NCBI GenBank assembly: GCA_021779635.1
Contig: JAJYAH010000059.1
Span: forward strand, 1 to 16,592
Length of the DNA: 16,592 nucleotides
Origin: Pseudomonadota bacterium
Lineage (GTDB): Bacteria > Pseudomonadota > Alphaproteobacteria > Rhizobiales > Xanthobacteraceae
Direction: 5' to 3'
The position numbers and the translations under genes were made by a program. This document shows positions 2,222 through 16,365 of the stretch, one piece after another (the stretch's first letter is position 1; every line of letters starts with the position of its first letter). The notes beneath the pieces were generated by a model. It saw only the letters and a program-made list of their open reading frames with translations. It ran no database searches and was not told the origin of the DNA.

Positions 2222-2951
2222 TGTCCGATAGTGATGCTCCGGGCTTCATTGCCGAGAGGGCAAGGAAGGCAGCACCCGTCGTGGTGAGGGCACCAATCTT
2301 GGGGTCGAAGGGTCCGAGCAGTCGTGCGGCGAATCCGCTCGGCAGATAGAAGACGGCGCCCTTCACCGAGACATCGACCAAACCGGCACCGGAGGCGAGG
2401 CTTCTGAGTTCGGCGGCGCTTCGGAACCTGGCGCGACGCCAGACGGGAGAGCCGAGCCATGCCTTGATGCGCCGGACGGCTGCCCAGGTACTCCATTTGC
2501 CGAGTTCGCCGACGATCAAGCGGCCGCCCGGCTTGAGAACGCGAACCATCTCATGTAACGCGCCAGCGGTGTTTTCGACGAAGCACAGCACTGTGACGGC
2601 GACAACCACATCGAACGAGTCGGCCTCGAAGGGTAACTTTTCTGCCTTCCCAATCGCGAAGGAGACATCACGTCCTTGCCGTTCGGCCCGCCACCGGGCG
2701 GCGGCGATCATTTCGGGGGACGCGTCAACGCCGATGACGTGGGCCGCATGTCCGGCAAGCTCCGCGGTGAGAACGCCGTCGCCGCATCCGACATCGAGGA
2801 TACACAGGCCCGACTGAGGACCGATCAGATCCAGGATCAGATCCTGTTCAAGGACGTCGGTAACCTGGCCGAGTGTGCTCGCGCGCCATGCTGCATAGGC
2901 AGCGGGCAACCTCTCAAGGTCGTCGCGTTCGCTCGTGTCCTCCGCCGTCAC
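2196..2951 (-). CDS. Class I SAM-dependent methyltransferase (UbiE/type 11-like)
   Basis: This 251-aa protein has the full Rossmann methyltransferase core: motif I LDVGCGDG (52-59), the acidic post-I strand end GVDASPEM (74-81), a motif II-like FDVVVAV (113-119), and LKPGGRLIVGEL (139-150) as motif III. Residues 151-251 form the variable substrate region and contain hydrophobic stretches. The substrate is not predictable. It starts with GTG, and that codon lies in a GTGA overlap with the stop of the upstream cysteine desulfurase, so the two are almost certainly translationally coupled. Its 3' end overlaps the phosphorylase gene. It is probably soluble and cytoplasmic. A small molecule (a thiol, a quinone-like compound or a metalloid) is as likely a substrate as any; none is favoured by the sequence. 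Confidence 0.9.
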   Translation of the reverse strand: MTAEDTSERDDLERLPAAYAAWRASTLGQVTDVLEQDLILDLIGPQSGLCILDVGCGDGVLTAELAGHAAHVIGVDASPEMIAAARWRAERQGRDVSFAIGKAEKLPFEADSFDVVVAVTVLCFVENTAGALHEMVRVLKPGGRLIVGELGKWSTWAAVRRIKAWLGSPVWRRARFRSAAELRSLASGAGLVDVSVKGAVFYLPSGFAARLLGPFDPKIGALTTTGAAFLALSAMKPGASLSDNGVGFDHF

Positions 2952-4090
2952 AATCTTGACTCGTGACCCGTTGGGGTAAGTGCCTTTTTCAATCCTGAAA
3001 TGACCGCATCCACATCGTCCCTACTTGTTCCCCGTCCCAGGCTGAAGCGGATCGCACCCATGCCCACTTCCGGGGCCACGCCCATGGCTTCAAGCACCGG
3101 TGACAGCTCGATCCGGCCGGAATGGCAGGCGGAACCTGTGGACGCGGCGATCCCGGGCACCGCGGCGAGAATCTCCGCGCCGACCCGTCCGGCGAAAGAG
3201 ACGCTGAGCGTGTTCGGCAGCCGGTGTTCCGGATGTCCGTTGAGCACGACGCCATTCCCGAAACGCTCTTTAAGCATGGCCCAGAAGTGATCGCGCAAGG
3301 CCGTGACCTCCCGCATCGACGACAGGTCGCGCGCGAGAATGCAGGCCTGCCCGAGGGCCGCGCAGAGCAGGGCGCTCTCCGTGCCCGCGCGCCGGCCGCT
3401 TTCGTGGGCCGCCCCATGGATCAGCGGTTCGAGCTCGATGCCGTTGCGGATGTAGAGCGCGCCCACGCCCTTGGGTGCGTAGAGCTTGTGTCCGGCAATC
3501 GTCAGGAGGTCGACGCGAAGATCGTCCACGCGCGTCGGGATCTTGCCAACCGACTGCGCGGCATCGGTGTGAAACGGGATGCCATGTTCGCGGGCGATCG
3601 CTGCACATTCGTCAATGGGCTGGATCGTCCCCACCTCATTGTTCGCATGCATGATGCTGATCAGGATCGTGTCGGATGTGATTGCCCGGCGCAGGTCGTC
3701 CGGGTCGATCCGCCCTGTGCCGTCGACCGGCAGCCACGTCACCGTCGCGCCCAGGCGTTCCAGGAAACGGAGCGGCTCCACGATTGCCGGATGCTCGACG
3801 CGGGTTGTGATGAAGTGGGGGCGTGGCCGTTTGCTGCTGAAAAACATGCCCTTCAGGGCGAAGTTGTTTGCCTCGCTTCCGCCGCTGGTGAACACCACCT
3901 CCTGCGGTGCGCAGCCGAGCAACGCGGCCACCTGCCGGCGGGCTTTCTCGACCATCTGTCGCGCAGGCGATCCTGCCCAGTGGCCGCTCGACGGGTTTCC
4001 ATACGCGTCCTCCATGGCATCGCGCATGACGGCGGCGACTTCGGGCGCAATCGGCGTGCTGGCGTTGTAATCGAGATAGATTTGTCGCAT
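2948..4090 (-). CDS. Cysteine desulfurase, NifS/IscS-like (class V aminotransferase)
   Basis: This 380-aa PLP enzyme has the length of NifS/IscS proteins. Visible landmarks are LDYNAST (6-12), the SGGSEANN PLP-phosphate loop (69-76), EHPAI (99-103, His stacking on PLP), HTDAAQ (174-179, Asp to the pyridine nitrogen), AGHKLYAPKG (199-208, Lys202 for the Schiff base), RRAGTES (233-239), and the persulfide-carrying cysteine in STGSACHSG (Cys322). It should convert L-cysteine to alanine plus enzyme-bound persulfide. No IscU, SufE or other Fe-S assembly gene is nearby. Instead a DsrE-like protein is encoded 3 nt upstream and rhodanese domains sit further up, so it more likely feeds persulfide sulfur into a relay than into Fe-S clusters. 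It is coupled to the methyltransferase by a GTGA overlap. Confidence 0.95.
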   Translation of the reverse strand: MRQIYLDYNASTPIAPEVAAVMRDAMEDAYGNPSSGHWAGSPARQMVEKARRQVAALLGCAPQEVVFTSGGSEANNFALKGMFFSSKRPRPHFITTRVEHPAIVEPLRFLERLGATVTWLPVDGTGRIDPDDLRRAITSDTILISIMHANNEVGTIQPIDECAAIAREHGIPFHTDAAQSVGKIPTRVDDLRVDLLTIAGHKLYAPKGVGALYIRNGIELEPLIHGAAHESGRRAGTESALLCAALGQACILARDLSSMREVTALRDHFWAMLKERFGNGVVLNGHPEHRLPNTLSVSFAGRVGAEILAAVPGIAASTGSACHSGRIELSPVLEAMGVAPEVGMGAIRFSLGRGTSRDDVDAVISGLKKALTPTGHESRL

Positions 4091-4093
4091 GGC

Positions 4094-4444
4094 TCAGAAC
4101 ACCAGAACCTTGCCGGCGCCAAGCGCCGCATCCCCGAGTTCGTCCATGGTGCTGCGCCTCGCGCCGTCCATGACATCGTCGTCGGTCATGCCGCGCGCGT
4201 CCATACAGGTGCCGCAGAGCAACACGGCGCCCTTTGCGAGCACGCGCTTCAGCATGCGTTCCATATTGTAGTATCCGTCCGGTGTTTTCTGGCCCTTGCG
4301 TGCGGCGACCACGGCGTCGGCCATCAGGAACACGGTAACTTCTGCGTCCGGCTCCTTCTTCAGCAGTGTGTGAGCAAGACGAAGCGCATTATAGCAGCGC
4401 TCGGTGCCGTAGGGCGGGTCGTTGAGGATGAACAGGGTCTTCAT
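4094..4444 (-). CDS. DsrE-family sulfur-relay protein
   Basis: A 116-aa protein of DsrE/DsrF-like fold: an N-terminal strand (KTLFILND), an ALRLAHTLL helix (20-28), the EVTVFLMADAV strand (35-45), and a cysteine motif CGTCMDARG (77-85) where the family carries its sulfur-binding cysteine. Two cysteines (77 and 80) are present in a CxxC arrangement. I chose ATG 4444 over the upstream in-frame ATG at 4486 because it follows a strong Shine-Dalgarno (GGAGG, 8 nt upstream), the protein then starts on the first beta strand, and the longer form would run back to within the SHOCT gene's end. Family members bind and pass persulfide sulfur. Being 3 nt from the cysteine desulfurase, it is a natural acceptor from that enzyme (inference). 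Confidence 0.88.
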   Translation of the reverse strand: MKTLFILNDPPYGTERCYNALRLAHTLLKKEPDAEVTVFLMADAVVAARKGQKTPDGYYNMERMLKRVLAKGAVLLCGTCMDARGMTDDDVMDGARRSTMDELGDAALGAGKVLVF

Positions 4445-4475
4445 GCGTGTTGCCTCCGGATTTGGGTGTAAGGGT

Positions 4476-4829
4476 TCATTCGCCAAGAATGCGACGACGT
4501 TCCTCGAATTCTTCCTTGTCGATTTCGCCGCGGGCGAAGCGCTCCTTGAGAATGTCGAGCGGCGTGCGCGCGAGCGGTTGATGCGGTGTGGTGGTTAGCG
4601 ATGATCCGCCGAGCCAGCGCACGAGGAGCACCGCCACCGCGATCACCAGGGCAAGCACAAGAATCATGAAGATCGGACCAAAGATCATCCCGCCCCATCC
4701 GCCGCCCCATCCCATCATGTGCGGTCCCCAGCCATAGCGGTCAGGATCGGTGGTTTGCGCCAAGGCCGCGCCCGGCAGAAGAGCGATTGTGGTGCCAATT
4801 GCGGCTATCGATAGCGGAATTCTTGTCAT
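4476..4829 (-). CDS. SHOCT-domain small membrane protein
   Basis: A 117-aa protein with a signal-anchor-like N-terminus (hydrophobic residues 5-24, AlaGlnAla-type cleavage possible near ALAQ), a glycine/tryptophan/methionine-rich linker (residues 32-48, MMGWGGGWGG), a transmembrane helix (about 49-71), and a C-terminal SHOCT domain (about 89-117, LDILKERFARGEIDKEEFEERRRIL). SHOCT domains are short helical modules found at the ends of many small membrane proteins; their function is mostly unknown, often oligomerisation. The start ATG follows an AAGGAA ribosome binding site. It is the third gene of the leftward operon, 55 nt after the rhodanese fusion and 31 nt before the DsrE gene. The Met- and Trp-rich linker could bind metal, but that is speculative. 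Confidence 0.85.
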   Translation of the reverse strand: MTRIPLSIAAIGTTIALLPGAALAQTTDPDRYGWGPHMMGWGGGWGGMIFGPIFMILVLALVIAVAVLLVRWLGGSSLTTTPHQPLARTPLDILKERFARGEIDKEEFEERRRILGE

Positions 4830-4884
4830 TGTCGTGTTCCTTTTTGATCTGTGTCGAGGGGCGCGGGGGCGTCAGCCGGCAGCG

Positions 4885-5882
4885 TCAAACCCGGCCTGAA
4901 GTGCCGTTGCCAGCCACTGTCAAACCGTCTCGTTTCCACCGTTCCATGCCGCCGCGAAGCACACGGACATCGCTAAACCCGCCAGCGCTCAGCAATACCG
5001 CGGCAGACGCGGAGCGTTTGTCAGTCTTGCAAACAACAATAACGGGCTTGTTCTTGTGCGCCCTGATCTCGGTCAAACGATCGGGCAATTCGCTGAGCGG
5101 GATGTTCAGCGCCGTCTCAATATGACCGAGGGGATCGGTGAATTCGTCGGGCGAGCGGACGTCGATGATGGTGGCGCCGCCACTGCCAAGTCCGGTTGCC
5201 AGCTCGTCTGTTTCGATCCAACGGGGTGCTACGCTCCGGCGCAGCCGCTTGACTAGCCGCGGAAGAAAGGCGATGGCCGCGAGCAGTCCAAGCGCCAGCA
5301 GGCCATAGCGGATGGCGGAGGTATCGCCCGCCAGCGCCTCACGCCCGGCATAGCCGAGCCAGGTATAGGCGATCGCCCCCGGTGCCATGCAGATGAAAGA
5401 GGTCATGACGTAGGGAACGAACCTGATCCGCGTCAGGCCGAGCGCGTAGTTGGTGAGGTTGAAGGGGAACAGCGGCACGAGGCGCACGAAGGCGATGAAA
5501 CGCCAGCCCTCCGCCTCGACGCCTTCGACCAGCCGCTTTAACCTGCCGCCGGTCCGGCCGCCACCCAGTCACCCGCGAGATAGCGGGCGATGAGAAAGGC
5601 AAGGCTGGCACCGATCGTTGCACCAACCAGATTAAGCAGCGAACCCCATACCGGTCCGAACAGGGCGCCACCGGCCAACGCGAACAGCGCCCCCGGCAGG
5701 AAGGCGATCGTTCCGACGGCATAGAGACCGAGATAGGCGAGCGGCGCCAGGAGCCCGAACCCGGAGAGCCAGGCATCGAGTGCTTCGAGGTCCAGCCGGT
5801 CGCGGTTGAGCGCCGCCCAGAGGATAGCCGCCGCGACGCCAACGAGAAGCAGAAGGCGGGGCAGAAGTTGCCGGGCGTTCAC
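4885..5882 (-). pseudogene. TVP38/TMEM64 (SNARE-associated) membrane protein fused to rhodanese, frameshifted
   Basis: Two adjacent frames make one protein. The N-terminal frame (from GTG at 5882) encodes a membrane protein with the TVP38/TMEM64 signature (FLPGALFALAGGALFG, then ASLAFLIARYLAGDW) and runs into a stop at about 5541. The continuing frame, readable from before 5530, encodes RLVEGVEAEGWRF, then LVPLFPFNLTNYALGLT and further membrane helices, and finally a rhodanese domain with IIDVRSPDEF and the active-site loop CKTDKRS. The family reads through without a break, so one base is missing (net -1) near 5553-5564, in a GC-rich run. The intact product would be about 330 aa: a membrane transporter-like domain with a cytoplasmic sulfurtransferase. 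The start is a GTGA overlap with the upstream gene. Whether the break is real or a sequencing error cannot be decided here. Confidence 0.85.
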
Positions 5883-6726
5883 TGCTCCTTCTCCGAATTC
5901 TCGCGATTGATCGGGTAGCCGCTGGCCGGACCGCGTGCCGGCTGAATCAACATACGATCAAGCCATAGGTCGCGGCGGGTACGGAACTGCTCGATGCCGA
6001 TGGTCATGGCTTCGTGGCCGTCGCGCGGTTGTGGCCGGTAGGTGCCGAGCAGGCGGTCCCACCAGGGCAGGTTGAAGCCGAAATTGGAATTGGTCTCGCT
6101 CGGGTGAATCGAATGGTGAACCCGGTGCATGTCCGGGGTTACCACGAACAGCCGCAGGACCCGGTCAATTGCCGACGGAATTCGGATATTGGAATGGTTG
6201 AACATCGCTGTGGCATTGAGCAGTACCTCGAAGACGAGCACGGCGGCGACCGGCGGTCCAAGTGCGGCGACCACGGCGAGCTTGATGCCCATCGACAGCA
6301 GGATCTCGATGGGATGGAACCTGAGACCGGTGGTCACGTCGAACTCAAGATCGGCATGGTGCATGCGATGGAGACGCCAGAGCGCCGGCACCGCATGAAA
6401 CATCACATGCTGGAGATAGATGGCGAGATCCAGCGCCAGTATTGAGACGACGAAGGAGACCCAGCCGGCACGTCGAAGACGTTGAACAGGCCCCAGCCGC
6501 GTTCTTGCGCCACCAGCGCCAGCCCAACCGCGACGATCGGAAAGGTCAGCCGCACCAGCAGCGTATCGATGACGACGACGCCGAGATTGTTGCTCCAGCG
6601 GAGAAGCCGCGGGATTTCCCGCCGCCGACGCGGGGCCGCCACTTCCCAGAGCGCCATGGCCAGGAGAATACCGAGAAAGACGGCCATGCGGATCAGTGGT
6701 TCGTTTGCCAGAATAAGGTCGGTCAT
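5879..6726 (-). pseudogene. Sterol desaturase/fatty acid hydroxylase-family membrane protein, frameshifted
   Basis: The first gene of the leftward operon. The N-terminal frame starts at ATG 6726 (MTDLILANEPLIRM, then membrane helices up to GLFNVFDVPAG). The C-terminal frame takes over at GWVSFVVSILALDL and carries the three histidine clusters of the fatty acid hydroxylase superfamily: HVMFH, HRMHH and HRVHH, which bind a di-iron centre. The switch lies at about 6463-6471 in a CCGGCTGG context and amounts to a net loss of one base (or four, if a CCGG unit was lost). An intact product would be about 280 aa with four or so membrane helices. Family members oxidise lipids; the substrate here is unknown. 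The stop overlaps the GTG start of the next gene (GTGA). The break could be a sequencing error. Confidence 0.85.
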
Positions 6727-6762
6727 TCGATGTCAGAAGCCTTGCCAAGCCCATTCGGGCGG

Positions 6763-6792
6763 ATTACATTCAATTAATCACTTGAATATTAT
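6763..6792 (+). promoter_or_regulatory. Probable promoter of the ArsR-rhodanese gene
   Basis: ATTACA (6763-6768, 4 of 6 matches to TTGACA), 18 nt, then TATTAT (6787-6792, 5 of 6 matches to TATAAT). The transcript would begin near 6799, so the message would have almost no leader before ATG 6805 (or 6811). No clear Shine-Dalgarno precedes either ATG, consistent with a leaderless or near-leaderless message. Confidence 0.55.
6768..6787. promoter_or_regulatory. Candidate operator (inverted repeat) for the ArsR-rhodanese regulator
   Basis: A 20-bp inverted repeat, ATTCAA, 8 nt, TTGAAT, in the 78-bp divergent intergenic region. It touches the -10 and covers the start site of the leftward promoter, and it fills the gap between the -35 and -10 of the rightward promoter, so one bound dimer would block both. 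Its AT-rich symmetrical form is as expected for ArsR/SmtB-type dimers. Binding by the adjacent regulator is inference. Confidence 0.7.
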
Positions 6793-6817
6793 AGTATCGG
6801 ACATATGGAAATGTCAA
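6788..6817 (-). promoter_or_regulatory. Consensus sigma-70 promoter of the leftward cargo operon
   Basis: Read on the minus strand, TTGACA (plus-strand 6812-6817) is followed after exactly 18 nt by TATAAT (6788-6793). Both hexamers are perfect. The expected transcript start is near 6781, giving a leader of about 55 nt before the desaturase-like ATG at 6726. The -35 lies inside the first codons of the divergent regulator gene. Such a strong promoter needs a repressor, and the inverted repeat at 6768-6787 overlaps its start site. Confidence 0.85.
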
Positions 6818-7470
6818 TCGGTCCCAAACAAGCGCTCTATGCCGAGTTCGCCTCTGTCGCCCGCGCGCTCGGGTCACCGCACCGTCTTGAGATGCTCGAA
6901 CATCTGGCCCAGGGCGAGCGCGGCGTTGAGGCGCTTGCAGATCGTGTCGGCTTGTCAATTGCCAACGCCTCGCAGCACCTGCAGCAGCTCAGACGCGCTG
7001 GGCTGGTCGCGTCGCGCCGGAAGGGCAAGTTCGTGCTCTACCGGCTTGCCGACGATGCCGTGCTTGGAGTGATAGCGGCGCTTTCTGGCGTTGCGGAACG
7101 TAATCTCGCCGAGGTCGACCGCATCCGGCGGGCCTACTTCGATGATCGCGACAGCATGGAGCCGGTCTCGCGCGAGGAACTCTTGCACAGAACGCGCGAC
7201 AATCTGGTCATCGTGCTCGATGTACGTCCAGCGGACGAGTTTGAGGTCGGGCACGTCCCTGGCGCCATCAATATTCCGTTGAGCGAACTGGAAGCGCGGC
7301 TCGCCGAACTCGATCCGGATCACGAGATCGTCGCCTATTGCCGGGGAGCATGGTGCGTACTGTCCTTTGAGGCCGTGGCTGCGCTGAGGGCACGTGGCTT
7401 CAAAGTGCGCCGTCTGGAGGACGGCCTGCCCGAGTGGCGGGCGGCAGGACTACGGGTCGAACGCGCCTGA
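6805..7470 (+). CDS. ArsR-family transcriptional regulator fused to a rhodanese domain
   Basis: A 221-aa two-domain protein. Residues 10-100 form a winged helix of ArsR type (RALGSPHRLEMLEHLAQGERGVEALADRVGLS, recognition helix around NASQHLQQLRRAGLV, wing RRKGKFVLYRL). Residues about 125-218 form a rhodanese domain (VIVLDVRPADEFEVGHVPGAINIPL) with the active-site loop CRGAWC. The HTH half contains no cysteine, so sensing probably depends on the two rhodanese-loop cysteines reacting with persulfide or another sulfur species. The gene is divergent from the seven-gene operon and shares overlapping promoters and an inverted repeat with it, which makes it the likely repressor of that operon and of itself. 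ATG 6805 and 6811 are both possible starts; 6811 would give MSIGPK. Confidence 0.92.
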   Translation: MEMSIGPKQALYAEFASVARALGSPHRLEMLEHLAQGERGVEALADRVGLSIANASQHLQQLRRAGLVASRRKGKFVLYRLADDAVLGVIAALSGVAERNLAEVDRIRRAYFDDRDSMEPVSREELLHRTRDNLVIVLDVRPADEFEVGHVPGAINIPLSELEARLAELDPDHEIVAYCRGAWCVLSFEAVAALRARGFKVRRLEDGLPEWRAAGLRVERA

Positions 7471-7513: not shown

Positions 7514-7682
7514 ACTCCTTCGAGTGAGGACGACCAGTACACTCCTCCACGCGAGCACGATGAGGATCAGCAAAAGGAGCCGCCAGCGTTTGGACGTATT
7601 GCGGCGTACCTAAAGGCCATAAGCGTTTCCGCTGTTTCGGGTGATCATTGCACCGTTTACCTTACTGAACGGAGCCCTTGCC

Positions 7683-9707
7683 ATGACCCCCACCAGACTC
7701 CTGATCGGGCAGATCGCCGTTGTGTTCGCCATCGTCATTCTGGGCGTGTGGGCGGCGACGCAGTGGTGCGCGGACATGCTGGGCTATCAAGCGCAGCTCG
7801 GGCCGCCCTGGTTCACCCTTTTCGGCTGGCCGGTTTATGAGCCGTGGAAGCTGTTCCAATGGTGGTACTTCTTTGAGGCCTACGCGCCCGAGGTGTTCGA
7901 CAAGGCGGGCATGCTGGCGGCGGGCAGCGGTTTCATGGGCTGCGCGGCGGCGGTAATCGGTTCGCTGTGGCGGGCGCGGCAGAACCGGTTGGTGACGACC
8001 TATGGTTCCTCGCGCTGGGCCTTGAAGGGGGAGATGAGGAAGGCCGGGCTGTTTCGGTCCGCAGGCGTGTTTCTGGGCCAGTTTCAGGAAAAATACCTCC
8101 GTCATGACGGGCCGGAGCATGTCATGGCCTTTGCGCCGACGCGCTCGGGCAAGGGCGTCGGCCTCGTCGTGCCGACGTTGCTGTCCTGGACAGGATCGGC
8201 GGTGATCCACGACATCAAGGGCGAAAACTGGCAATTGACCGCCGGCTGGCGCACCAAGTTCTCCCATTGCCTGCTGTTCAACCCGACCGACCCGCGCTCA
8301 GCGCGTTACAATCCGCTGCTCGAAGTGCGTAAGGGAGCGGACGAGGTCCGCGACGTCCAGAATATTGCCGACATCCTCGTCGATCCCGAAGGCGCGCTCG
8401 AACGCCGGAACCATTGGGAGAAAACCAGCCATGCGCTGCTGGTCGGCGCCATCCTGCATGTGCTTTATGCTGAGGAGGAGAAGACGCTGGCGCGTGTCGC
8501 GACCTTTCTGTCGGATCCGAAGCGGTCCTTCGCGGCGACGCTGAGAAGGATGATGGAGACCAATCATCTGGGAACGGCGGAAAACCCGGAGGTGCATCCG
8601 GTGGTGGCCTCCGCCGCGCGCGAGGTGCTGAACAAGTCCGAGAACGAGCGTTCTGGCGTGCTCTCGACCGCCATGTCGTTCCTCGGGCTCTATCGCGATC
8701 CGACCGTGGCGGCGGCGACATCGGCCTGCGACTGGCGTATAGCTGACCTGATGGATGCCAAACATCCCGTCTCGCTTTATTTGGTCGTGCCGCCATCGGA
8801 TATTTCACGCACCAAACCGCTGGTGCGGTTGATTCTCAATCAGATCGGGCGGCGCCTGACCGAGCGGCTGGAGGGCGACCCGAAGAAGTCGCGCAAGCAC
8901 CAGCTTTTGATGATGCTGGATGAGTTCCCCGCTTTGGGACGGCTTGATTTCTTCGAGACGGCCTTGGCCTTCATGGCCGGGTACGGCATCCGCGCTTATC
9001 TGATCGCGCAGAGCCTCAACCAGATTTCCAAAGCCTATGGCGAGAATAACGCCATCCTCGATAACTGCCATGTGCGGATTGCTTTCAGCAGCAATGACGA
9101 GCGTACCGCCAAGCGGATTTCCGATGCGCTGGGCACGGCCACCGAGCTGCGCGCGATGCGCAATTATGCCGGCCACCGGCTGGCACCCTGGCTCAGCCAT
9201 GTCATGGTCAGCCGCCAGGAGACAGCGCGACCGCTCCTGACCCCCGGCGAGGTCATGCAGCTTCCGCCGACGGATGAGTTGGTGCTGATCTCCGGCCTTG
9301 CGCCGATCCGCGCCAAAAAGCTCAGATATTACGAGGACGAGAACTTCACCGGGCGGGTGCTGCCCGCGCCGGCGCTGGCGACAAGCGATTATGCTGACAA
9401 GCCTGAAACGCGACCAGATGATTGGGGCAAGCAAGTGCGCAAGGCTGACACGCGGCTTGCCGCCCAAGATGATGCAAAATCGACCTCCACTGACGAAGGC
9501 GGGATGCAGCAACAGCGCCATCCGGGGCTGGGCGAGGAAATTGTTAAAACCGCCGAACCCGAGCAGGGCGAATTGCCGAACCTCCTGGATGACGATCCCG
9601 ACAACGCCGCCGACAAGAAGATGATAGAGCGCGCCGCGACACCCGCGCGCGCCTATGGCGTGAATGAAGGCATGGGGCCGGACAGGGATCTGCTGGACGG
9701 GTTTTGA
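7683..9707 (+). CDS. traG: Type IV coupling protein TraG (VirD4 family)
   Basis: A 674-aa coupling protein, the ATPase that links the relaxosome to the mating channel at the inner membrane. It has an N-terminal membrane anchor (helices about 5-25 and 73-97), Walker A in APTRSGKGVG (151-160), the HDIKGENW motif (176-183), Walker B LLMMLDEFPALGR (408-420), and YLIAQSLNQI (439-448). Start ATG 7683 follows GGAG at 7671-7674 and gives the usual MTPTRLLIGQ beginning; an in-frame GTG at 7641 would add 14 residues that do not look native. The C-terminal about 110 residues are acidic and low in conservation, as usual. It normally follows the relaxase and precedes copG; here cargo has been placed on both sides of it. 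Confidence 0.97.
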   Translation: MTPTRLLIGQIAVVFAIVILGVWAATQWCADMLGYQAQLGPPWFTLFGWPVYEPWKLFQWWYFFEAYAPEVFDKAGMLAAGSGFMGCAAAVIGSLWRARQNRLVTTYGSSRWALKGEMRKAGLFRSAGVFLGQFQEKYLRHDGPEHVMAFAPTRSGKGVGLVVPTLLSWTGSAVIHDIKGENWQLTAGWRTKFSHCLLFNPTDPRSARYNPLLEVRKGADEVRDVQNIADILVDPEGALERRNHWEKTSHALLVGAILHVLYAEEEKTLARVATFLSDPKRSFAATLRRMMETNHLGTAENPEVHPVVASAAREVLNKSENERSGVLSTAMSFLGLYRDPTVAAATSACDWRIADLMDAKHPVSLYLVVPPSDISRTKPLVRLILNQIGRRLTERLEGDPKKSRKHQLLMMLDEFPALGRLDFFETALAFMAGYGIRAYLIAQSLNQISKAYGENNAILDNCHVRIAFSSNDERTAKRISDALGTATELRAMRNYAGHRLAPWLSHVMVSRQETARPLLTPGEVMQLPPTDELVLISGLAPIRAKKLRYYEDENFTGRVLPAPALATSDYADKPETRPDDWGKQVRKADTRLAAQDDAKSTSTDEGGMQQQRHPGLGEEIVKTAEPEQGELPNLLDDDPDNAADKKMIERAATPARAYGVNEGMGPDRDLLDGF

Positions 9708-9757
9708 GTAAGAGCGGCGAAATCGGAGTGGCTGAAATCACCTCGCGACCCATTCCG

Positions 9758-9785
9758 GCTGTTGGCGAAGGGTGCCACGAACAGC
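9758..9785. other. Hairpin in the traG/RT convergent intergenic region
   Basis: GCTGTTGGC and GCC/AACAGC pair across the 205-nt gap between the converging traG and reverse transcriptase genes. A second, mutually exclusive pairing (GAAGGG 9767-9772 with CCCTTC 9795-9800) overlaps it. A 10-bp palindrome GACATATGTC lies at 9804-9813. No classical terminator with a T-run directly after a stem is evident. The region could hold a weak bidirectional terminator. Confidence 0.3.
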
Positions 9786-9912
9786 TCGATTGAGCCCTTC
9801 TGAGACATATGTCGTGGTGCGCCCGATTCGAAGTTTAGGCGGGAAGTGGACGTTCGCAGAATGACTGGGTTGAATGCAAAACGACGACAAAAAAGCCCGG
9901 TTCGCGATCAGT

Positions 9913-11208
9913 TCATAGCTTCTTGAGCTTCTCGATCTCGCGAAGCGCGGCACGTTCAAACCGCTTAATTTGCTGAGAGATTTTTTCGTCTTCACCAAAT
10001 GCGGCAGCGCTGCGCCGTCCATAGGACGAAAAATTTCGAACGATCCGAACACCCTCGTCGTCGCGCACCTTCAGATGGGTGAAGCGGCGATACAGACGCT
10101 TGGTGTGTGCCTTGGTCGACTTTCCGGAAGCGATGTTGCGCTCCGCGATCTTGCGGGTCCAGCGCATCGCCCTTCGCATCTTCCGCCATTGGCGAGCAAG
10201 GGAGCTTTCCCGAATGGCAGGTCCCGCTTCGTGAAGCGCGAAGCCGAGGTATTGCGCAGCCTTCCCGGCCATGGCCCCGCCTGTGCCTGTAAACTCGGTC
10301 CTTTCAGTCTTGTGCGGCGAAATCTCCAGCTTCTCCGCTTTGATGAGGTCCACGATCTTGGCCCCGGCCGCTGTCGCGCGAGCAGGTTCGCAGATCACCA
10401 AAATGTCGTCCGAATACCGGCGATACAGCGCGCCGATGCTGTTGCAGTAGGCGCGTGCAGCAGCGTCGAAATCAATCATGTATAGGTTTGACGCCGCCGC
10501 GCTGATGGGGGTGCCCTGAGGGATGCCACGCCGATGCCCCATTCCCAGTTCCGGGTTCGGGTGGAACTTGATGCCGTTGGCTTTCAATTCCTCGACACTG
10601 GCGATCCGGTCCCGGCTTTTCTCCTTCAGCCGAGCGGAGAACGTGGGGTTCGCCTTCAGTTCTTCCATATCGACGTAGTGGAAAGCTGTAATCGCGCGAA
10701 ACACGCGCATCCAATGCTCAGGGAGCGACGTCACGCCAAGCACCGCCTTCATGCGGCGCTTCAGAAGCGTGTGGTCAAGATTGTCGAAGAAGCTGCTGAC
10801 GTCGAACGCCAGTATCGTTACGGGGGCATGGCTCTTTGCGAAGGCAAGCACTTCAGCCGAGAAATCGTAGTTGCCGCGTCCAAGGGCACGATAGGCCAGA
10901 ACGCTATCGGACAGACCAGCAGCGTCGTAGTGGGCGTCTAGCAATTTATTCATCTCGCTGGCGTAGAAAGAAAGTATGCAGGTATCCCGATGCGATGCAT
11001 ATTTGATCGGGCGGTCCTTTGTGGTGATCGTCCGCATCCCGGTCTTCGGGCGCTTCTTGTAGCGCTTCTCGGACTTCGTGTAGTGCAGCAGAGGGAGGAA
11101 AGAGTGCTGAAGCACGAAGTTTGGGTCCATCACCTTGCTGGCGAACTTCTCGCCCACGGGCAGATCGAAATGGCGGTAGCCTCTGGACTTAAACCAATCG
11201 AACGACAT
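9913..11208 (-). CDS. Reverse transcriptase of the defence-associated (UG/DRT) type, probable DRT2-like
   Basis: A 431-aa protein starting at ATG 11208 after AAGGAGGG (5-nt spacing). The RT motifs are complete: RPIKYASHRD (66-75), motif A AFDVSSFFDN (134-143, Asp136), motif B RGIPQGTPIS (227-236), motif C YRRYSDDILV (262-271, Asp267/268), HKTERTEF (299-306) and the motif E-like AAQYLGF (317-323). The N-terminus SRGYRHFDLP and the YASH segment resemble bacterial antiviral RTs of the unknown groups. After the thumb comes about 90 residues of basic helix. There is no maturase, HNH or X domain (against a group II intron) and no retron-type VTG signature. The about 400 nt upstream look like a structured template RNA, which points to DRT2: an RT that, on phage infection, copies its ncRNA into tandem repeats forming a toxic gene. 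Family assignment is inferred from locus architecture. Confidence 0.9.
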   Translation of the reverse strand: MSFDWFKSRGYRHFDLPVGEKFASKVMDPNFVLQHSFLPLLHYTKSEKRYKKRPKTGMRTITTKDRPIKYASHRDTCILSFYASEMNKLLDAHYDAAGLSDSVLAYRALGRGNYDFSAEVLAFAKSHAPVTILAFDVSSFFDNLDHTLLKRRMKAVLGVTSLPEHWMRVFRAITAFHYVDMEELKANPTFSARLKEKSRDRIASVEELKANGIKFHPNPELGMGHRRGIPQGTPISAAASNLYMIDFDAAARAYCNSIGALYRRYSDDILVICEPARATAAGAKIVDLIKAEKLEISPHKTERTEFTGTGGAMAGKAAQYLGFALHEAGPAIRESSLARQWRKMRRAMRWTRKIAERNIASGKSTKAHTKRLYRRFTHLKVRDDEGVRIVRNFSSYGRRSAAAFGEDEKISQQIKRFERAALREIEKLKKL

Positions 11209-11227
11209 TAACCCTCCTTGTCGCAGA

Positions 11228-11285
11228 GTTCGGGGGACTGGCCCTGACCCTGGGCTCCGGTTCTTAGGCCGGGCGTCCCCCGAAC
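11228..11285. repeat. 11-bp perfect inverted repeat in the RT leader
   Basis: GTTCGGGGGAC (11228-11238) pairs exactly with GTCCCCCGAAC (11275-11285), enclosing 36 nt that can form a smaller GC-rich stem. It ends about 20 nt upstream of the RT start codon and leaves the Shine-Dalgarno free. This is the 3'-most stem of the proposed ncRNA and could also mark its processing boundary from the RT message. Confidence 0.85.
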
Positions 11286-11334
11286 GCACGCCACCTTCTG
11301 CCGGCGTATACGTTCAGCGTCTCACTTCCGAACG

Positions 11335-11364
11335 CCTCGCAGACACGGGTCTCGAAACGCGAGG
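11335..11364. repeat. Bulged hairpin at the proposed template 3' boundary
   Basis: CCTCGC (11335-11340) pairs with GCGAGG (11359-11364); inside, AGAC (11341-11344) pairs with GTCT (11349-11352) around the loop ACGG, leaving a six-base bulge CGAAAC. The bulge contains the AAC of the 4-nt junction repeat (11356-11359). In RT orientation this stem lies just 3' of the copied region, where it could position the enzyme for priming and re-initiation. Confidence 0.7.
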
Positions 11365-11373
11365 TGGTATAAT
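11365..11373 (+). promoter_or_regulatory. Extended -10 element (TGGTATAAT) of the split neo promoter
   Basis: A perfect TATAAT at 11368-11373 preceded by TGG. In the genome the bases at the -35 position (11345-11350, ACGGGT) match TTGACA at one position only, so this should be weak as it stands. The missing -35 is found 100 nt downstream, at 11474-11479. Confidence 0.75.
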
Positions 11374-11394
11374 GTAACCGTGGAGGTCCGAGCT

Positions 11395-11583
11395 ATGCTC
11401 AGTGTCTCATTCAGTCTGGTACTGGTCGCGGCGATGCTGTTCGGCATCGTGCTGCCAGGTCACCATAAAGAGGTTGACAAGTTCAACGGCCAAACCCGTG
11501 GGCCAATTCTCGCGGGCAATCACCATTTAGTGAGCGCATTCCTGCTATTCAAGGTTGCGAGGGAATATTTCCAGAATAGGTGA
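11395..11583 (+). CDS. Small ORF, 62 aa, single hydrophobic helix (genomic form of the neo-like frame)
   Basis: ATG 11395 follows GGAGGT with 7-nt spacing and an extended -10. The product has one hydrophobic helix (about residues 2-22) and then a polar tail with several His, Lys and Asp. The same frame is open upstream to 11248, so 111 codons are free of stops in all. In the genome it ends at 11583, just where a 6-bp hairpin (11582-11606) begins. It may be an ordinary small membrane protein, possibly toxin-like, driven by the extended -10. I think it more likely that only the first 31 codons matter, as part of the concatemeric frame described above. No homology is recognised. Confidence 0.45.
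   Translation: MLSVSFSLVLVAAMLFGIVLPGHHKEVDKFNGQTRGPILAGNHHLVSAFLLFKVAREYFQNR
11474..11479 (+). promoter_or_regulatory. Orphan -35 element (TTGACA) of the split neo promoter
   Basis: A perfect TTGACA with no matching -10 at normal spacing downstream in the genome. It lies near the 3' end of the 129-nt unit, and in tandem copies it falls 17 nt before the TATAAT of the next copy. It overlaps a small hairpin (GTTGA 11473-11477, TCAAC 11483-11487). Confidence 0.75.
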
Positions 11584-11870
11584 CAGCATACGAGAGGTGG
11601 GCTGTCTCCGGATCTTCTCTGCGCGAAGCATAAAGGTCCGCTATTTAGCCGTTCAGTAGAACTATGCCGAACGTCGATTCCCACCTAATTACGGGAATCG
11701 ACGATCCGACGAATGACCATTGCTTTAGACTGTTGTCGCCACTGACACCCGGCGATCCATCGTAGCTGGCCCCGTATATCGGGCACGTTCAAGCCGCATC
11801 TCCCGCGCGTCGTCGCAGTTCGTCGTACATAAAGGATATAAGAGATTCCAGCGGCTTAGCCGATCCTTGT
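11584..11870. other. Intergenic stretch without a recognised gene
   Basis: About 290 nt, visibly less GC-rich than the flanks, between the RT-system ncRNA region and copG. I see no coding frame worth calling. It holds the hairpins at 11582-11606 and 11672-11703, and it should contain the promoter of the RT/ncRNA transcript (leftward) and possibly that of the copG-trb operon (rightward); neither can be placed with confidence. Confidence 0.5.
11672..11703. repeat. 11-bp perfect inverted repeat with 10-nt loop
   Basis: CGTCGATTCCC (11672-11682) and GGGAATCGACG (11693-11703) are exact complements around an AT-rich 10-nt loop. No T-run follows on either strand, so a terminator is unlikely. It lies about 90 nt beyond the last hairpin assigned to the ncRNA and could be an operator, a recombination or transposon end, or part of a longer RNA. 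Confidence 0.8.
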
Positions 11871-11891
11871 CCTGACTTTCCGTTTGTCAGG
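11871..11891. promoter_or_regulatory. Inverted repeat just upstream of copG, candidate autoregulatory operator
   Basis: CCTGAC (11871-11876) and GTCAGG (11886-11891), 9 nt apart, end 10 nt before the copG start and run into its ribosome binding site (GGTGAGG). Ribbon-helix-helix proteins commonly repress their own operons by binding symmetrical sites at the promoter. As RNA it would be a hairpin that could mask the Shine-Dalgarno. Either role is inference. Confidence 0.45.
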
Positions 11892-11901
11892 GTGAGGATG
11901 C

Positions 11902-12378
11902 ATGAAGCCGCGCCACAATATTTACATCGATGAAGAAACGACCGCCGAATTGGAGGCGCTGGTGGCAAAGCCGGGCGCGTCCAAGTCTGCCATCGTTTCC
12001 GATGCCATCCGTCATTACATCTGCCATCGCGGCGCGCGTGAGATCGACGAGGCGCTGAAAATCCGTCTCGACCGGGTGACGCGCGACATGGGTCTCATTC
12101 GTCGCGACCTCGATGTGCTGACCGAGAGCCTCGCCTTTTTCGTCAAGCTTTACCTCACCTTCAACGCGCATACCCCCGTGCCTGATGCGTCGGCGCAGGC
12201 GGTGGCGCGCGACCGTTTCCAGAAATTCATCGAGCAGGTCGGCCGCCAGATCGCGGGCGGCAAACGTTCGCTTGGCACCAAGGAGGGTGAGGAGCGGTCC
12301 GGCGATAGCCGGATCGAAACGTCCGGTGGACGTTTCGAAGGGACGAACGCCCGGAGCCACGCGGAGGGCCAAGAATGA
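11902..12378 (+). CDS. CopG-family ribbon-helix-helix protein of the trb operon
   Basis: A 158-aa protein. Residues 3-45 are a ribbon-helix-helix domain: the beta strand RHNIYID, helix ETTAELEALVAK, then the GASKSAIVSDAIRHYI second helix. Residues 50-95 form a probable coiled/helical segment with a hydrophobic stretch (LAFFVKLYLTF), and the C-terminal 40 residues are polar and low-complexity. This protein is standard between traG and trbB in alphaproteobacterial conjugative elements and is taken to regulate the transfer operon or assist the relaxosome. Its TGA overlaps the trbB ATG (ATGA). A perfect 11-bp inverted repeat sits inside its 3' end (12314-12338). The RT cassette now separates it from traG. 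Confidence 0.9.
   Translation: MKPRHNIYIDEETTAELEALVAKPGASKSAIVSDAIRHYICHRGAREIDEALKIRLDRVTRDMGLIRRDLDVLTESLAFFVKLYLTFNAHTPVPDASAQAVARDRFQKFIEQVGRQIAGGKRSLGTKEGEERSGDSRIETSGGRFEGTNARSHAEGQE
12314..12338. repeat. 11-bp perfect inverted repeat with 3-nt loop inside the copG 3' end
   Basis: TCGAAACGTCC (12314-12324) and GGACGTTTCGA (12328-12338) surround GGT. It codes for the low-complexity tail of the CopG protein, ending 36 nt before the trbB start. As RNA it is a very stable hairpin; as DNA it is a near-continuous palindrome that a dimeric regulator could bind. Confidence 0.85.
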
Positions 12379-13337
12379 GCGACACATCTGAAGAGCGCCG
12401 CCGCGCCATGCTCAAAACCGCCATGGGGCCGGTGATCGCGCAGGCGCTGTCTGATCCCGCCGTCATCGAGGTGATGGTCAATCCCGATGGCAAGCTGTGG
12501 ATCGACCGGCTCGGCGAAGGCCGCGGCAATATCGGCGTGCGCATCCATCCGTCCGAGACCGAACGGATCATTCGGCTGGTTGCAAGCCATGTGCGCGCCG
12601 AGGTGCATGCGGACAATCCCATCGTCAGTGCGGAACTGCCGTCTGGTGAACGGTTCGAGGGGCTGTTGCCGCCGGTAGCATTGGGGCCATGTTTTGCCAT
12701 CCGCAAACCAGCGACCAAGATACTGACCATCGCTGATTATGTCCGCGACCGGATCATGGTGCCGATCCAGGCCGAGGCTTTGCGCAAGGCCGTTTGGGAG
12801 CGGAAGAACATTCTGGTTGCCGGTGGCACATCCAGCGGCAAGACGACGCTGACCAACGCGCTGCTTGCCGAAATCGCTGATTGCGATGAGCGTGTCATTC
12901 TCATCGAAGACACGCGCGAGCTGCAATGCGCGGCGACGGATTGCGTGGCGCTCAGAACCCGCGCGGGCGCGGTGTCGATGGGTGCCCTGGTGCGCTCGAC
13001 CCTGCGCCTGCGGCCCGACCGCATCATCGTCGGGGAGGTGCGCGGCGCGGAAGCGCTCGACATGCTCAAAGCCTGGAATACCGGCCATCCCGGCGGCATC
13101 GCCACGGTGCACGCCAATTCCGCCCGCTCGGCGCTCTACCGCATTGAGCAGCTCGTGCAGGAAAGCGTCACCATCGTTCCGCGTCGCCTGATCGCTGATG
13201 CCATCGACATAGTGGTGTTCATCGCTGGGCGCGGCAGTGATCGCCGCATCGAGACCATCGCCGAAGTAACGGGTCTCGATGAGCATGGCGATTACGCCAT
13301 CACAATCCTTTCACTCCCTCAGCTTCAGCAACTCTGA
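12375..13337 (+). CDS. trbB: TrbB, VirB11-family T4SS ATPase
   Basis: A 320-aa hexameric secretion ATPase that sits at the cytoplasmic face of the mating channel and drives pilus assembly and substrate transfer. Visible motifs: Walker A AGGTSSGKTT (149-158), Asp box VILIEDTRE (174-182), Walker B region RPDRIIVGEVRGAEA (213-227), and His box TGHPGGIATVHANS (236-249). Length and start match the family. The start ATG overlaps the copG stop, and trbC follows 12 nt after its own stop with an AAAAGGA ribosome binding site. Confidence 0.98.
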   Translation: MSDTSEERRRAMLKTAMGPVIAQALSDPAVIEVMVNPDGKLWIDRLGEGRGNIGVRIHPSETERIIRLVASHVRAEVHADNPIVSAELPSGERFEGLLPPVALGPCFAIRKPATKILTIADYVRDRIMVPIQAEALRKAVWERKNILVAGGTSSGKTTLTNALLAEIADCDERVILIEDTRELQCAATDCVALRTRAGAVSMGALVRSTLRLRPDRIIVGEVRGAEALDMLKAWNTGHPGGIATVHANSARSALYRIEQLVQESVTIVPRRLIADAIDIVVFIAGRGSDRRIETIAEVTGLDEHGDYAITILSLPQLQQL

Positions 13338-13349
13338 AAAGGACACCCC

Positions 13350-13658
13350 ATGCGCAAGAAGCTTCGATTTCTTCTCTCTTCCGCCCTCGCGTTTGCGTTT
13401 ACGGCCCCGGCCTATGCGGCGGGTTCCGGCATGCCGTGGGAAGAGCCGCTGCAACGCATATTGGAATCGGTGCAAGGCCCGGTCGCCAAGATCGTCGCGG
13501 TAATCATCATCATTCTCACCGGTCTGACGCTGGCCTTCGGCGAAAGCTCGGGCGGCTTTCGGCGGCTGATCCAGATCGTCTTCGGTCTCTCCATTGCCTT
13601 CGCCGCCAGTTCGTTCTTCCTCTCCTTCTTCTCTTTTGGCGGCGGGGCACTCCTCTGA
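13350..13658 (+). CDS. trbC: TrbC, VirB2-like pilin precursor
   Basis: A 102-aa conjugative pilin precursor. Residues 1-23 are a signal peptide (RKK, hydrophobic core, cleavage after AYA), followed by two hydrophobic helices (about 46-63 and 75-97) separated by a short charged loop (ESSGGFRR), the usual VirB2/TrbC layout. The mature protein would be about 79 aa; in related systems TrbC is further trimmed and cyclised. It starts after AAAAGGA. The stop overlaps trbD as TGATG. Confidence 0.95.
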   Translation: MRKKLRFLLSSALAFAFTAPAYAAGSGMPWEEPLQRILESVQGPVAKIVAVIIIILTGLTLAFGESSGGFRRLIQIVFGLSIAFAASSFFLSFFSFGGGALL

Positions 13659-13927
13659 TGGCCGCGCAACGCTCCATTGAGGGATTTGAAGTCCCTGTCC
13701 ATCGCTCGCTGACCGAGCCGATCTTGCTCGGCGGCGCGCCGCGTGCGGTCGCCATCCTCAATGGCACGCTCGCAGCCGCCATCGGCCTCGGCCTCCAGCA
13801 ATGGATCGCCGGGCTGGTGATGTTTGTCGCCGGGCATACGCTCGCGGTGTTTGCCGCCAAGCGCGATCCGGATTTTCTGCCGGTGCTCGCGCGGCACCTT
13901 CGGCAAAAGGGGTGGTGGCGATGCTGA
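13658..13927 (+). CDS. trbD: TrbD, VirB3-like inner-membrane T4SS protein
   Basis: An 89-aa protein with the VirB3/TrbD pattern: a polar N-terminus ending in FEVPVHRSLTEPILLGGAPR (about 10-29), two membrane helices (about 30-47 and 50-65), and a short C-terminus with AAKRDPDFLPVLARHLRQK. VirB3 proteins work with VirB4 in the inner membrane. It starts in TGATG with trbC and overlaps trbE by 7 nt. A longer in-frame opening runs upstream through trbC to 13436; the overlap start is preferred because it fits family length. Confidence 0.95.
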   Translation: MAAQRSIEGFEVPVHRSLTEPILLGGAPRAVAILNGTLAAAIGLGLQQWIAGLVMFVAGHTLAVFAAKRDPDFLPVLARHLRQKGWWRC

Positions 13928-16365
13928 ACATTGGTGAATATCGTAATCGCGCCGACCGGCTCGCCGATCTTCTGCCCTGGGCGGCGCTCATTGCGCCCGG
14001 CATCGTGCTCAATAAGGACGGCAGTTTCCAGCGGACATTCCGCTTTCGCGGTCCCGACCTCGAAAGCGCCACGGAAGCCGAACTGGTCGGTCTCTGCGCC
14101 CGTGCCAATAATGCGCTGAAGCGGCTTGGCTCCGGCTGGGCGCTGTTCTTCGACGCCGAGCGCCTGGAGGCGCAACATTATCCGTCATCGGAATTTCCGG
14201 ACGCGGCTTCATGGCTCATCGATGAGGAACGCCGCGCCGCGTTCGAAGAGGGTCGTCAGGGCCAGCATTTCGAGAGCCGCTATCATCTCACTCTCCTATA
14301 TATGCCGCCGCAGGACGCGCAGGCGCGCACCGAAAATGCCCTTCTGGAGCGCGACCGGGAGGGGGAAGGGACCGGCGGCGTTCGCAACTGGCGGCAGGAA
14401 ATGACCCGCTTCCGGGACGAGACCGAGCGGGTGCTGGATCTGCTCAGCGGTTTCCTGCCCGAGATCCGCGCGCTCGATGACGCCGAAACCCTGACCTTCC
14501 TGCACGGTACGGTTTCCACGAAGCGCCATACCGTCGCCGTGCCGGAAGTACCCATCTATCTTGACGGTGTTCTGGTGGATACGCCGCTCACCGGCGGGCT
14601 GGAGCCGATGCTGGGTGAAAAGCATATCCGCACCCTGACCATCCTTGGTTTTCCCAACACCACCCGCCCCGGCATTCTCGACGCGCTCAACCATCAGGAC
14701 TTCGCCTATCGCTGGGTGACGCGCTTCATCCCGCTCGACAAGACGGCGGCGACCAAGGTCTTGACCCGCCTGCGTCGGCAATGGTTCGCCAAGCGCAAGT
14801 CGATCACTGCTGTCCTGCGCGAGGTGCTGACCAATGAGGCGGCGCCATTGGTCGATAGCGATGCCGACAACAAGGCGCTCGATGCCGATGCGGCGCTTCA
14901 AGCCTTGGGCGGCGATCATGTTGGTTTTGGCTATCTCACCACCACCATAACGGTGTTCGATGAGGATGCCCAAGCCGCTGAAGATAAAGCCCGCGCTATA
15001 GAGCGGATCGTCAACGGATTGGGTTTCACCTGCATTCGCGAGAGTGTCAATGCCGTCGAAGCCTGGCTCGGTTCCTTGCCGGGGCACGTTTACGCCAATG
15101 TCCGCCAGCCGCTCATTCACACACTGAACCTTGCCCATCTGATGCCGCTGTCGGCGGTCTGGGCCGGGCCGGTGCGCAATACCCATCTCAATGCGCCACC
15201 TTTGTTTTATGCGGAGACCAGCGGTTCGACGCCGTTCCGGCTATCCACCCATGTCGGCGATGTCGGTCACATGCTGATCGTTGGCCCGACCGGCGCCGGC
15301 AAGTCGGTGCTGCTGTCACTGATTGCCATGCAGTTCCGGCGTTATGCAGGTAGCCAAGTCTATCTCTTTGACAAAGGCAATTCTGCCCGCGCCGCCGTGC
15401 TGGCCATGGGCGGCGAACATCATGCGCTGGGGGCAGATGGATCGCTGTCCTTCCAGCCTCTGCGCCATATCGACGATCCCGCGACACGAAGTTGGGCGGC
15501 GGAATGGATTGGCGCATTGCTCGCCCATGAGAAACTCACGGTCACGCCAGAAGTGAAGGAGGCCGTCTGGTCGGCGCTTACAAACCTTGCCAGCGCGCCA
15601 GCGGCGGAACGCACGCTCACCGGGCTCACGGTGCTGCTGCAATCCAACCCGATCAAGGCGGCGCTGCAACCCTATACGCTGGACGGGCCGTTCGGGCGTC
15701 TGCTCGACGCCGCGGATGACCGGCTGGCGCTCTCAAGCGTGCAGTGCTTCGAGACCGAGGAACTGATGCACCAGGCAGGCGTGGTCTTGCCGGTGCTGAC
15801 CTATTTGTTCCATCGCCTCGAAGAGCGGTTCGACGGGCGGCCGACGCTGCTGATCCTCGATGAAGCCTGGGTCTTTCTCGATAATCCGCTTTTCGCCGCG
15901 CGCATCCGCGAATGGCTGAAGGTGCTGCGCAAGAAGAATGTCTCGGTGATCTTCGCCACCCAGTCGCTGGCCGACATCGTCGATAGCTCCATCGCCTCGG
16001 CGATCATCGAGAGCTGCCCGCAACGCATCTTTCTGCCCAATGACCGGGCGGTCGAACCGCAAGCGCGGGACGCCTATGAGCGCTTCGGTCTCAACGACCG
16101 ACAGATCGAGCTGATCGCGCAGGCAACGCCCAAGCGCCATTATTACCTGCAATCACGGCGCGGCAACCGGCTGTTCGAACTTGGCCTCGGCCCCATCGCG
16201 CTGGCGCTCTGCGGCGCATCCGACACGGACGCACAAACTCTCATCGACGCCATCCTGGCCGAACACGGGACAGGCGATTTCGCCGCCCGGTTCCTCAAAG
16301 CACGCGGTCTCGATTGGGCCGCCGACCTCATCACGCAATTTCCTCGACACGGAGAACCATCATGA
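13921..16365 (+). CDS. trbE: TrbE, VirB4-family T4SS ATPase
   Basis: An 814-aa ATPase, the largest component of the mating channel's energy machinery. The N-terminal half (to about residue 430) is the CagE/TrbE/VirB region; then come Walker A IVGPTGAGKS (453-462), LFDKGNSAR (sensor-like strand), and Walker B LLILDEAWVFLDNP (643-656), followed by FATQSLADI. The ATG at 13921 overlaps the trbD end and gives the family-standard MLNIGEYRNRADRLADLLPW; the in-frame codons from 13801 would only add a tail lying in trbD. No interruption is visible. The stop overlaps trbJ (ATGA). Confidence 0.98.
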   Translation: MLNIGEYRNRADRLADLLPWAALIAPGIVLNKDGSFQRTFRFRGPDLESATEAELVGLCARANNALKRLGSGWALFFDAERLEAQHYPSSEFPDAASWLIDEERRAAFEEGRQGQHFESRYHLTLLYMPPQDAQARTENALLERDREGEGTGGVRNWRQEMTRFRDETERVLDLLSGFLPEIRALDDAETLTFLHGTVSTKRHTVAVPEVPIYLDGVLVDTPLTGGLEPMLGEKHIRTLTILGFPNTTRPGILDALNHQDFAYRWVTRFIPLDKTAATKVLTRLRRQWFAKRKSITAVLREVLTNEAAPLVDSDADNKALDADAALQALGGDHVGFGYLTTTITVFDEDAQAAEDKARAIERIVNGLGFTCIRESVNAVEAWLGSLPGHVYANVRQPLIHTLNLAHLMPLSAVWAGPVRNTHLNAPPLFYAETSGSTPFRLSTHVGDVGHMLIVGPTGAGKSVLLSLIAMQFRRYAGSQVYLFDKGNSARAAVLAMGGEHHALGADGSLSFQPLRHIDDPATRSWAAEWIGALLAHEKLTVTPEVKEAVWSALTNLASAPAAERTLTGLTVLLQSNPIKAALQPYTLDGPFGRLLDAADDRLALSSVQCFETEELMHQAGVVLPVLTYLFHRLEERFDGRPTLLILDEAWVFLDNPLFAARIREWLKVLRKKNVSVIFATQSLADIVDSSIASAIIESCPQRIFLPNDRAVEPQARDAYERFGLNDRQIELIAQATPKRHYYLQSRRGNRLFELGLGPIALALCGASDTDAQTLIDAILAEHGTGDFAARFLKARGLDWAADLITQFPRHGEPS

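Follow-up and report, generated by a model that had tools for sequence, protein, structure and literature searches.

A divergent alphaproteobacterial DRT2 locus predicted to write an endless neo gene by tandem template copying

A second, alphaproteobacterial type of DRT2 system, in which tandem copying of an RNA template would write an endless neo gene for a cell-arresting repeat protein, is very probably encoded in the stretch of 16,592 nucleotides analyzed here, which is called the window throughout. The family of its reverse transcriptase (RT), the scaffold RNA, the two promoter boxes in reversed order, the short repeat at the prospective junction, the length of the unit, the open frame and the conservation of these features are all read directly from the nucleotide sequences. 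As judged from such comparisons, what is new here is an AAC(G) junction, an RT-13 scaffold and one unit of 22 codons; a divergent clade is thus read out in silico. The annotation of Neo has been described as more challenging in the more divergent clades, for which alternative mechanisms were suggested (preprint PMC11100668), and the published comparison covered 42 close orthologues (PMC12039810). No paper that deals with RT-13 or with the Neo of alphaproteobacterial DRT2 came up in a literature search; supplements and the journal version of PMC11100668, which lay outside its scope, may hold part of this. The accessible text of four further papers (PMC12596737, PMC13213688, PMC12632851, PMC13174585) contains nothing on the clade of the window.

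Results

The RT gene occupies positions 9913–11208 of the minus strand and encodes 431 amino acids with a YSDD motif. PADLOC assigns the protein to Drt2 (E = 1.3e-128), NCBIfam Drt2 is its best family (385 bits, slightly below the cut-off of 390), and in the PDB all three distinct sequences matched at E ≤ 0.001 belong to the Drt2 group, the Drt2 chains (E = 3e-61) being presumably those of the Klebsiella protein. Between this gene and the stretch that holds the reversed boxes, Rfam places an RT-13 RNA. Since the enzyme is a DRT2 RT and RT-13 lies between, this stretch falls within the template of a DRT2 noncoding RNA (ncRNA), which supports the original prediction that the locus is a DRT2 system with a hidden neo gene, as does the comparison of homologues given below (31 of 31 clade loci).

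In the template the two halves of a promoter stand in the wrong order. Read directly on the plus strand, the extended −10 box that had been claimed is there base for base, TGGTATAAT (11365–11373), and the exact TTGACA of the −35 box (11474–11479) lies 100 nt beyond the end of that box, likewise on the plus strand. The two reported copies of the 4-nt repeat AACG were found at 11356–11359 and 11485–11488, and joining at this repeat does give, as proposed, a spacer of 17 nt and a unit of 129 nt (11360–11488, plus strand, the sense of the cDNA). The copy at 11485–11488, at the 5′ end of the template, is the predicted jump motif (CGUU in the RNA), to which the 17-bp register across 21 loci points, and the copy at 11356–11359 is the predicted landing motif (also CGUU), placed by the alignment structure in a conserved helix with 11289–11292. 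The ribosome-binding site GGAGGT (11382–11387) and the neo start codon ATG (11395–11397), both on the plus strand, could likewise be read directly, and the frame of this ATG, foreseen as stop-free, is the sole open frame in the unit. The amino-acid repeat of the window unit, NARWYNVTVEVRAMLSVSFSLVLVAAMLFGIVLPGHHKEVDKF, has 43 residues. A consensus scan of positions 11200–11700 found no sigma-70-type promoter in genomic order. Spacing, junction repeat, frame and translation start had been described as four independent requirements; each was open to failure in the relatives and none failed in the clade, but their independence is incomplete since a single register fixes the spacing, the repeat and the length.

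Sixty-two loci were assembled beside the window, with RT matches in 6 of 385, 8 of 292, 5 of 397, 5 of 250 and 1 of 248 genomes of the sets searched (genomes already in the sample counted); 829 homologous proteins, 120 of them listed, were available without DNA. The RT tree, from which ten duplicates and four truncated or broken sequences were left out, comprises 49 RTs including that of the window and places the latter within an alphaproteobacterial clade of 31 rows (30 others and the window; branch support 100/100), where RT identity goes down to 47%. This clade is separate from the branch that carries the Escherichia coli loci L060 and L061, whose RTs are 34% identical to the window RT and match the PDB Drt2 chains with E = 1e-170 and 8e-167. 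The tree program flags long branches outside the clade, and the sample there is partial because only part of the matched plasmid records (8 of 28 and 1 of 37) and E. coli records (2 of 3) was used. Scans of viral contigs with the window RT and a Photobacterium RT as queries returned no relative. Three phage records with distant matches were also noted.

An alignment of homologous loci had been proposed as a check, and in it the boxes, the junction repeat, the stop-free frame and the divisibility of the length by 3 were retained in all 31 clade loci, but not in all DRT2 loci outside the clade. In each of the 31, which are related rows and thus not independent, the reversed boxes rejoin at 17 bp, the frame is open in one constant phase and the unit is divisible by 3 (129 nt in 27 loci, 123 nt in two, 120 nt in one and 66 nt in one). 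The junction repeat measures at least 4 nt in 23 loci, 3 nt in seven and 2 nt in one (L019, AC only). The boxes are weak in L023 (CATATA) and L053 (TACATT/TTGACT). An ATG stands 27 nt downstream of the first base of the −10 box, with position and frame kept, in 20 of the 21 aligned loci, L019 having GTG there; a purine-rich ribosome-binding site similar to that of the window is present in 20 of 21, with none visible in L021. Two loci were absent from the first scans, L021 because its unit is under the set limit and L023 because its −10 box is too weak, and both were registered by hand from the box positions and the alignment.

The unit of L021 (2776–2841, antisense strand, from an alphaproteobacterial MAG) counts 66 nt or 22 codons, with an ACA junction repeat, the 17-bp register and an open frame, and is thus little over half of the 111 nt that is the published minimum for a neo repeat. 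In two plasmid loci (L035:1683–1811 and L036:1671–1805) an annotated “hypothetical protein” has precisely the neo start codon as its first codon and continues in linear order beyond the junction; in these records the hidden neo gene stands in the databases in a mis-read form.

Exact boxes together with a repeat of at least 4 nt, a length divisible by 3 and an open frame occur once on the plus strand of the window, not at all on its minus strand, and in none of 400 dinucleotide shuffles of the window (one strand counted in each); none of 200 shuffles of the 450-nt stretch next to the RT gave the pattern. When one mismatch per box is allowed, 35 of 150 window shuffles match somewhere, so that the weight rests on exactness, place and conservation. 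Shuffles of individual loci, each with its own box quality and repeat length (14 clade and seven outside loci; L019, L023 and near-duplicates left out), yielded the pattern in 0 of 200 for 18 loci and in 1, 2 and 6 of 200 for L035, L025 and L053. Of 19 joining registers (spacers of 8–26), 17 bp brings together a repeat of at least 3 nt in 20 of the 21 loci, and the runner-up, 25 bp, does so in 12. Both copies contain the AC core at 17 bp in 21 of 21 loci; other AC dinucleotides coincide in 19 loci at a spacer of 8 and in 20 at a spacer of 25. On division by 3, the unit leaves remainders of 0, 1 and 2 in 21, 0 and 0 loci, versus 9, 9 and 3 for the distance that separates the −10 box from the RT start (counted over 21 of the 31 loci after removal of ten near-duplicates, the related rows not being independent). 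No stop interrupts the neo frame in any of the 20 distinct 129-nt units, both other frames of that strand being interrupted in every unit; of the reverse-strand frames, two lack stops in some units, one in 5 and the other in 7. The control loci L060 and L061 gave a TGT junction, a 117-nt unit, the 17-bp spacer and an open frame, this junction and unit length being those published for Klebsiella-like loci (PMC12039810).

The predicted DRT2 ncRNA, whose structure is conserved across the 21 aligned loci, spans 11223–11520 of the minus strand with an approximate, inferred 5′ end, and is similar in length to the Klebsiella ncRNA, for which 280 nt is given (PMC12039810). Its 3′ scaffold is the Rfam RT-13 RNA (11223–11291, minus strand; 84.4 bits against a gathering score of 69.1), in which an 11-bp helix (11275–11285 with 11228–11238; 8 of 11 pairs changed on both sides) encloses two short helices. 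A 5′ handle hairpin lies just outside the template (11496–11515; 6 of 7 pairs changed on both sides), and a further conserved hairpin of the same strand (11388–11402, helix 4; 96.0% of cells paired) has a loop that overlaps the start codon. RNAalifold on the 21-locus alignment gave 57 pairs, 34 of them with changes on both sides. Pairing holds in 94.2% of cells versus 25.6–46.8% with the partners slid; letter shuffles within columns leave a mean of 85.6% paired and 0 of 500 reach the observed value, a test that favors the structure, since it was derived from the same alignment that scored it. The window RNA by itself has a fold z of −2.78 and a minimum-energy structure that is partly different. 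A consensus scan of the window locus found no promoter of the ncRNA's own; a candidate −35 for it, CTTGA (11549–11553, minus strand), is conserved in 12 of 21 loci, at a distance of 79–81 nt from the −35 box of neo.

The CGUU at the 5′ end of the template is only a few nucleotides from the handle hairpin, and the other copy sits within the conserved helix adjoining the RT-13 scaffold; in this model both are predicted to be paired at rest, near structured RNA. Their placing is comparable to that published for the ACA motifs of Klebsiella-type DRT2, which are described as adjoining bound RNA elements (PMC12039810) and as lying next to SL2 or inside it (PMC11100668). In an Rfam scan of 18 loci, RT-13 was present in eight of nine clade members (L021 being without it) and RT-12 in L037, L060 and L061 among nine non-clade loci. 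RT-12 appears to be the scaffold of Klebsiella-like DRT2 and RT-13 the alphaproteobacterial one, two families on two branches; the literature search found no paper that names either of them.

The repeat of the window is 23–98% identical to the repeats of 19 other loci. Its best 19-residue stretch, LSVSFSLVLVAAMLFGIVL, encoded by 11398–11454 of the plus strand, has a mean Kyte–Doolittle hydropathy of 2.56, a value as high as which was seen in 0 of 300 stop-free shuffles; the membrane helix that had been claimed for the 43-residue repeat is a prediction from hydropathy. Among the 21 aligned clade loci the best value is at least 1.75 except in L022 (1.23) and L021 (0.61). The repeats of L060 and L061 are also hydrophobic (2.03 and 1.83); this property is therefore not peculiar to the clade. 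Substitutions at codon positions 1, 2 and 3 number 119, 89 and 115, without an excess at the third, and synonymous substitutions number 98 in the neo frame versus 90 and 72 in other frames; with no codon-position signal there is little sign of selection on the residues. To judge by these substitutions, the residues seem free to drift if the frame stays open and the middle hydrophobic. In the published work most conserved Neo residues were ascribed to conservation at the nucleotide level, and a hydrophobic codon bias was noted (PMC12039810). A hydrophobic segment in every predicted repeat suggests the membrane as the target, which the accessible published text leaves open.

Eighteen DRT2 rows fall outside the clade; seven carry the pattern at 17 bp, one (L040) carries it with a 16-bp spacer, five are without a clear repeat and five without the pattern. 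Among the seven, L037, L043, L044, L060, L061 and L062 have at most one box mismatch (L062 with AC only, in the AC register) and L025 has three, that is, weak boxes. In L039 and L049–L052 the boxes deviate at two or three positions (TATGTT-like, TTAACA), the spacer is 17 bp, the frame is open and the lengths are divisible by 3 (111, 117, 114, 111 and 111 nt), but no junction repeat of at least 3 nt was seen; these loci lie outside the per-locus shuffle set. These five form a second Rhodobacterales DRT2 group that has kept the reversed boxes without a clear junction repeat. The scan of the outside rows found no pattern in L026, L038, L041, L058 and L059. As to the DRT2 label itself, PADLOC gave Drt2 as the best family for all ten RTs submitted (L025, L026, L039, L043, L044, L058, L061 and L062 outside the clade, L022 and L054 within it); for L037, L040, L041 and L060 the label comes from the record annotation and for L038, L049–L052 and L059 from similarity to the window RT alone.

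Discussion

Reverse transcription, jumping, second-strand synthesis, transcription, translation, toxicity and phage defense are all envisaged here by analogy with the published Klebsiella system. The RT would likely copy nucleotides 11488–11360 of the ncRNA again and again, the new strand, ending in AACG at the end of the template, re-annealing each time to the CGUU at its start. In the resulting tandem 129-nt repeats the −35 box would come to stand ahead of the −10 box, and the reading frame would run on without end. Once double-stranded, the concatemer would offer this rebuilt promoter for transcription, and translation starting at the ATG of each repeat would yield a protein of 43-residue repeats (Neo) with a predicted membrane-inserting helix; this protein would arrest the infected cell. 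This would be the published DRT2 mechanism (rolling-circle reverse transcription, a promoter and frame rebuilt at the junction, and a Neo effector) with a different restart motif.

It is improbable, in our estimate, that the effector is instead the concatemeric cDNA or its transcript, without any protein and with the open frame as a by-product of constraint on the RNA. The lack of a codon-position signature and the strong RNA structure reaching into the template would both fit such an effector; however, the unit is divisible by 3 in all 31 loci while the flanking length is free, and the frame is open in one phase throughout with its start codon fixed. Moreover, stop-creating steps along a minimum spanning tree are depleted in the neo frame only (2 versus 6.9–8.0 expected), the other frames being as expected (27 versus 24 and 9 versus 10). 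In Klebsiella a stop codon is reported to lose defense and a synonymous change to keep it (PMC12039810). The shuffles, none of which matched the hydrophobic stretch of the window, also speak against an effector without protein.

An ordinary small antisense gene for a short membrane peptide, read in genomic order from the extended −10 box, is somewhat less probable again. There is a linear ORF, two plasmid records annotate a hypothetical protein from the neo ATG, and an extended −10 box can act without a −35 box; but the scan showed no promoter in genomic order, and the linear ORF is not the conserved thing, since its stop varies from 33 to 174 nt past the junction. The 17-bp register, the junction repeat and the length rule would, furthermore, be left unexplained. 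That the boxes stand beside an RT by chance is hardly credible: the relaxed pattern does turn up in 35 of the 150 window shuffles, but the exact one never did in 400, and the per-locus shuffles and the conservation across 31 loci, diverged relatives included, tell against such a coincidence.

The endless neo gene thus remains our preferred reading, and its closest parallel is the K. pneumoniae DRT2 system (PMC12039810, PMC11100668). The RT family and the ncRNA directly upstream of it are common to both, and so are the template flanked by a 5′ handle on one side and a folded 3′ scaffold on the other, the reversed TATAAT and TTGACA rejoined at 17 bp, the ribosome-binding site and ATG after the −10 box, the unit divisible by 3, the endless frame antisense to the ncRNA and the hydrophobic repeat. 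The phase of the window frame relative to the boxes is that of the Klebsiella-like L060 and L061. At the sequence level, then, the window has what defines DRT2, a Drt2 RT, a structured upstream ncRNA on the RT strand and a template that rebuilds promoter and frame, whereas the ACA motifs, the RT-12 scaffold and the RT branch of the Klebsiella-like (RT-12/ACA) subgroup are not found in it. The junction of the window clade is AAC(G) (RNA GUU) in contrast to the TGT (RNA ACA) of Klebsiella-like loci, and lies about 2 nt further from the −35 box; the scaffold is RT-13 instead of RT-12, and units of 123 and 66 nt occur beside the published lengths of 111, 117, 120 and 129. The hydrophobic stretch differs in degree only. 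The 3′ scaffold of the window ncRNA is a member of the Rfam family RT-13 (RF03017), which spans 67 nt; the template, the 5′ handle and neo lie outside the family. An analogy drawn in PMC12039810 is that of repeat addition by telomerase, in which a short repeat at both ends of the template would allow re-annealing; it is an analogy only, for the window template is 129 nt long and its product would code for protein.

The predicted restart signal of the window clade is unlike the one studied so far. On balance, we favor the idea that the DRT2 lineages each have their own restart code, a matched pair (ACA, GUU or others) that would be free to change if its two copies match and the 17-bp register and triplet length are kept, with Neo shrinkable to a repeat of 22 residues. 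If so, Neo would be the rule across DRT2, beyond the Klebsiella-like branch, and the RT-13 RNA would serve a gene-writing machine as its scaffold. What is fixed in the clade is the 17-bp register, the divisibility of the length by 3, the phase and the start site; the jump letters, the unit length and the protein sequence are free. With this read-out, the way in which the enzyme chooses its jump site can be tested by comparison, Rfam RT-13 acquires a proposed role, and there is a rule for finding elsewhere the hidden neo genes that ordinary annotation misses.

The DRT2 cassette of the window is flanked by a traG-like gene and a copG-trbB-trbC-trbE-like cluster, a conjugation module (7641–16365). 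Among the 62 loci, with flanks of up to 3 kb, the neighbors TraG, CopG, TrbB and TrbE have a match in two, L018 and L028, which is a duplicate of L018 (TrbE, 36%); a conjugation setting is therefore no general feature. The genes at positions 1379–7470 of the window include those for a class V aminotransferase, a methyltransferase, a protein resembling nucleoside phosphorylases and an arsR-type regulator that carries a fused rhodanese domain.
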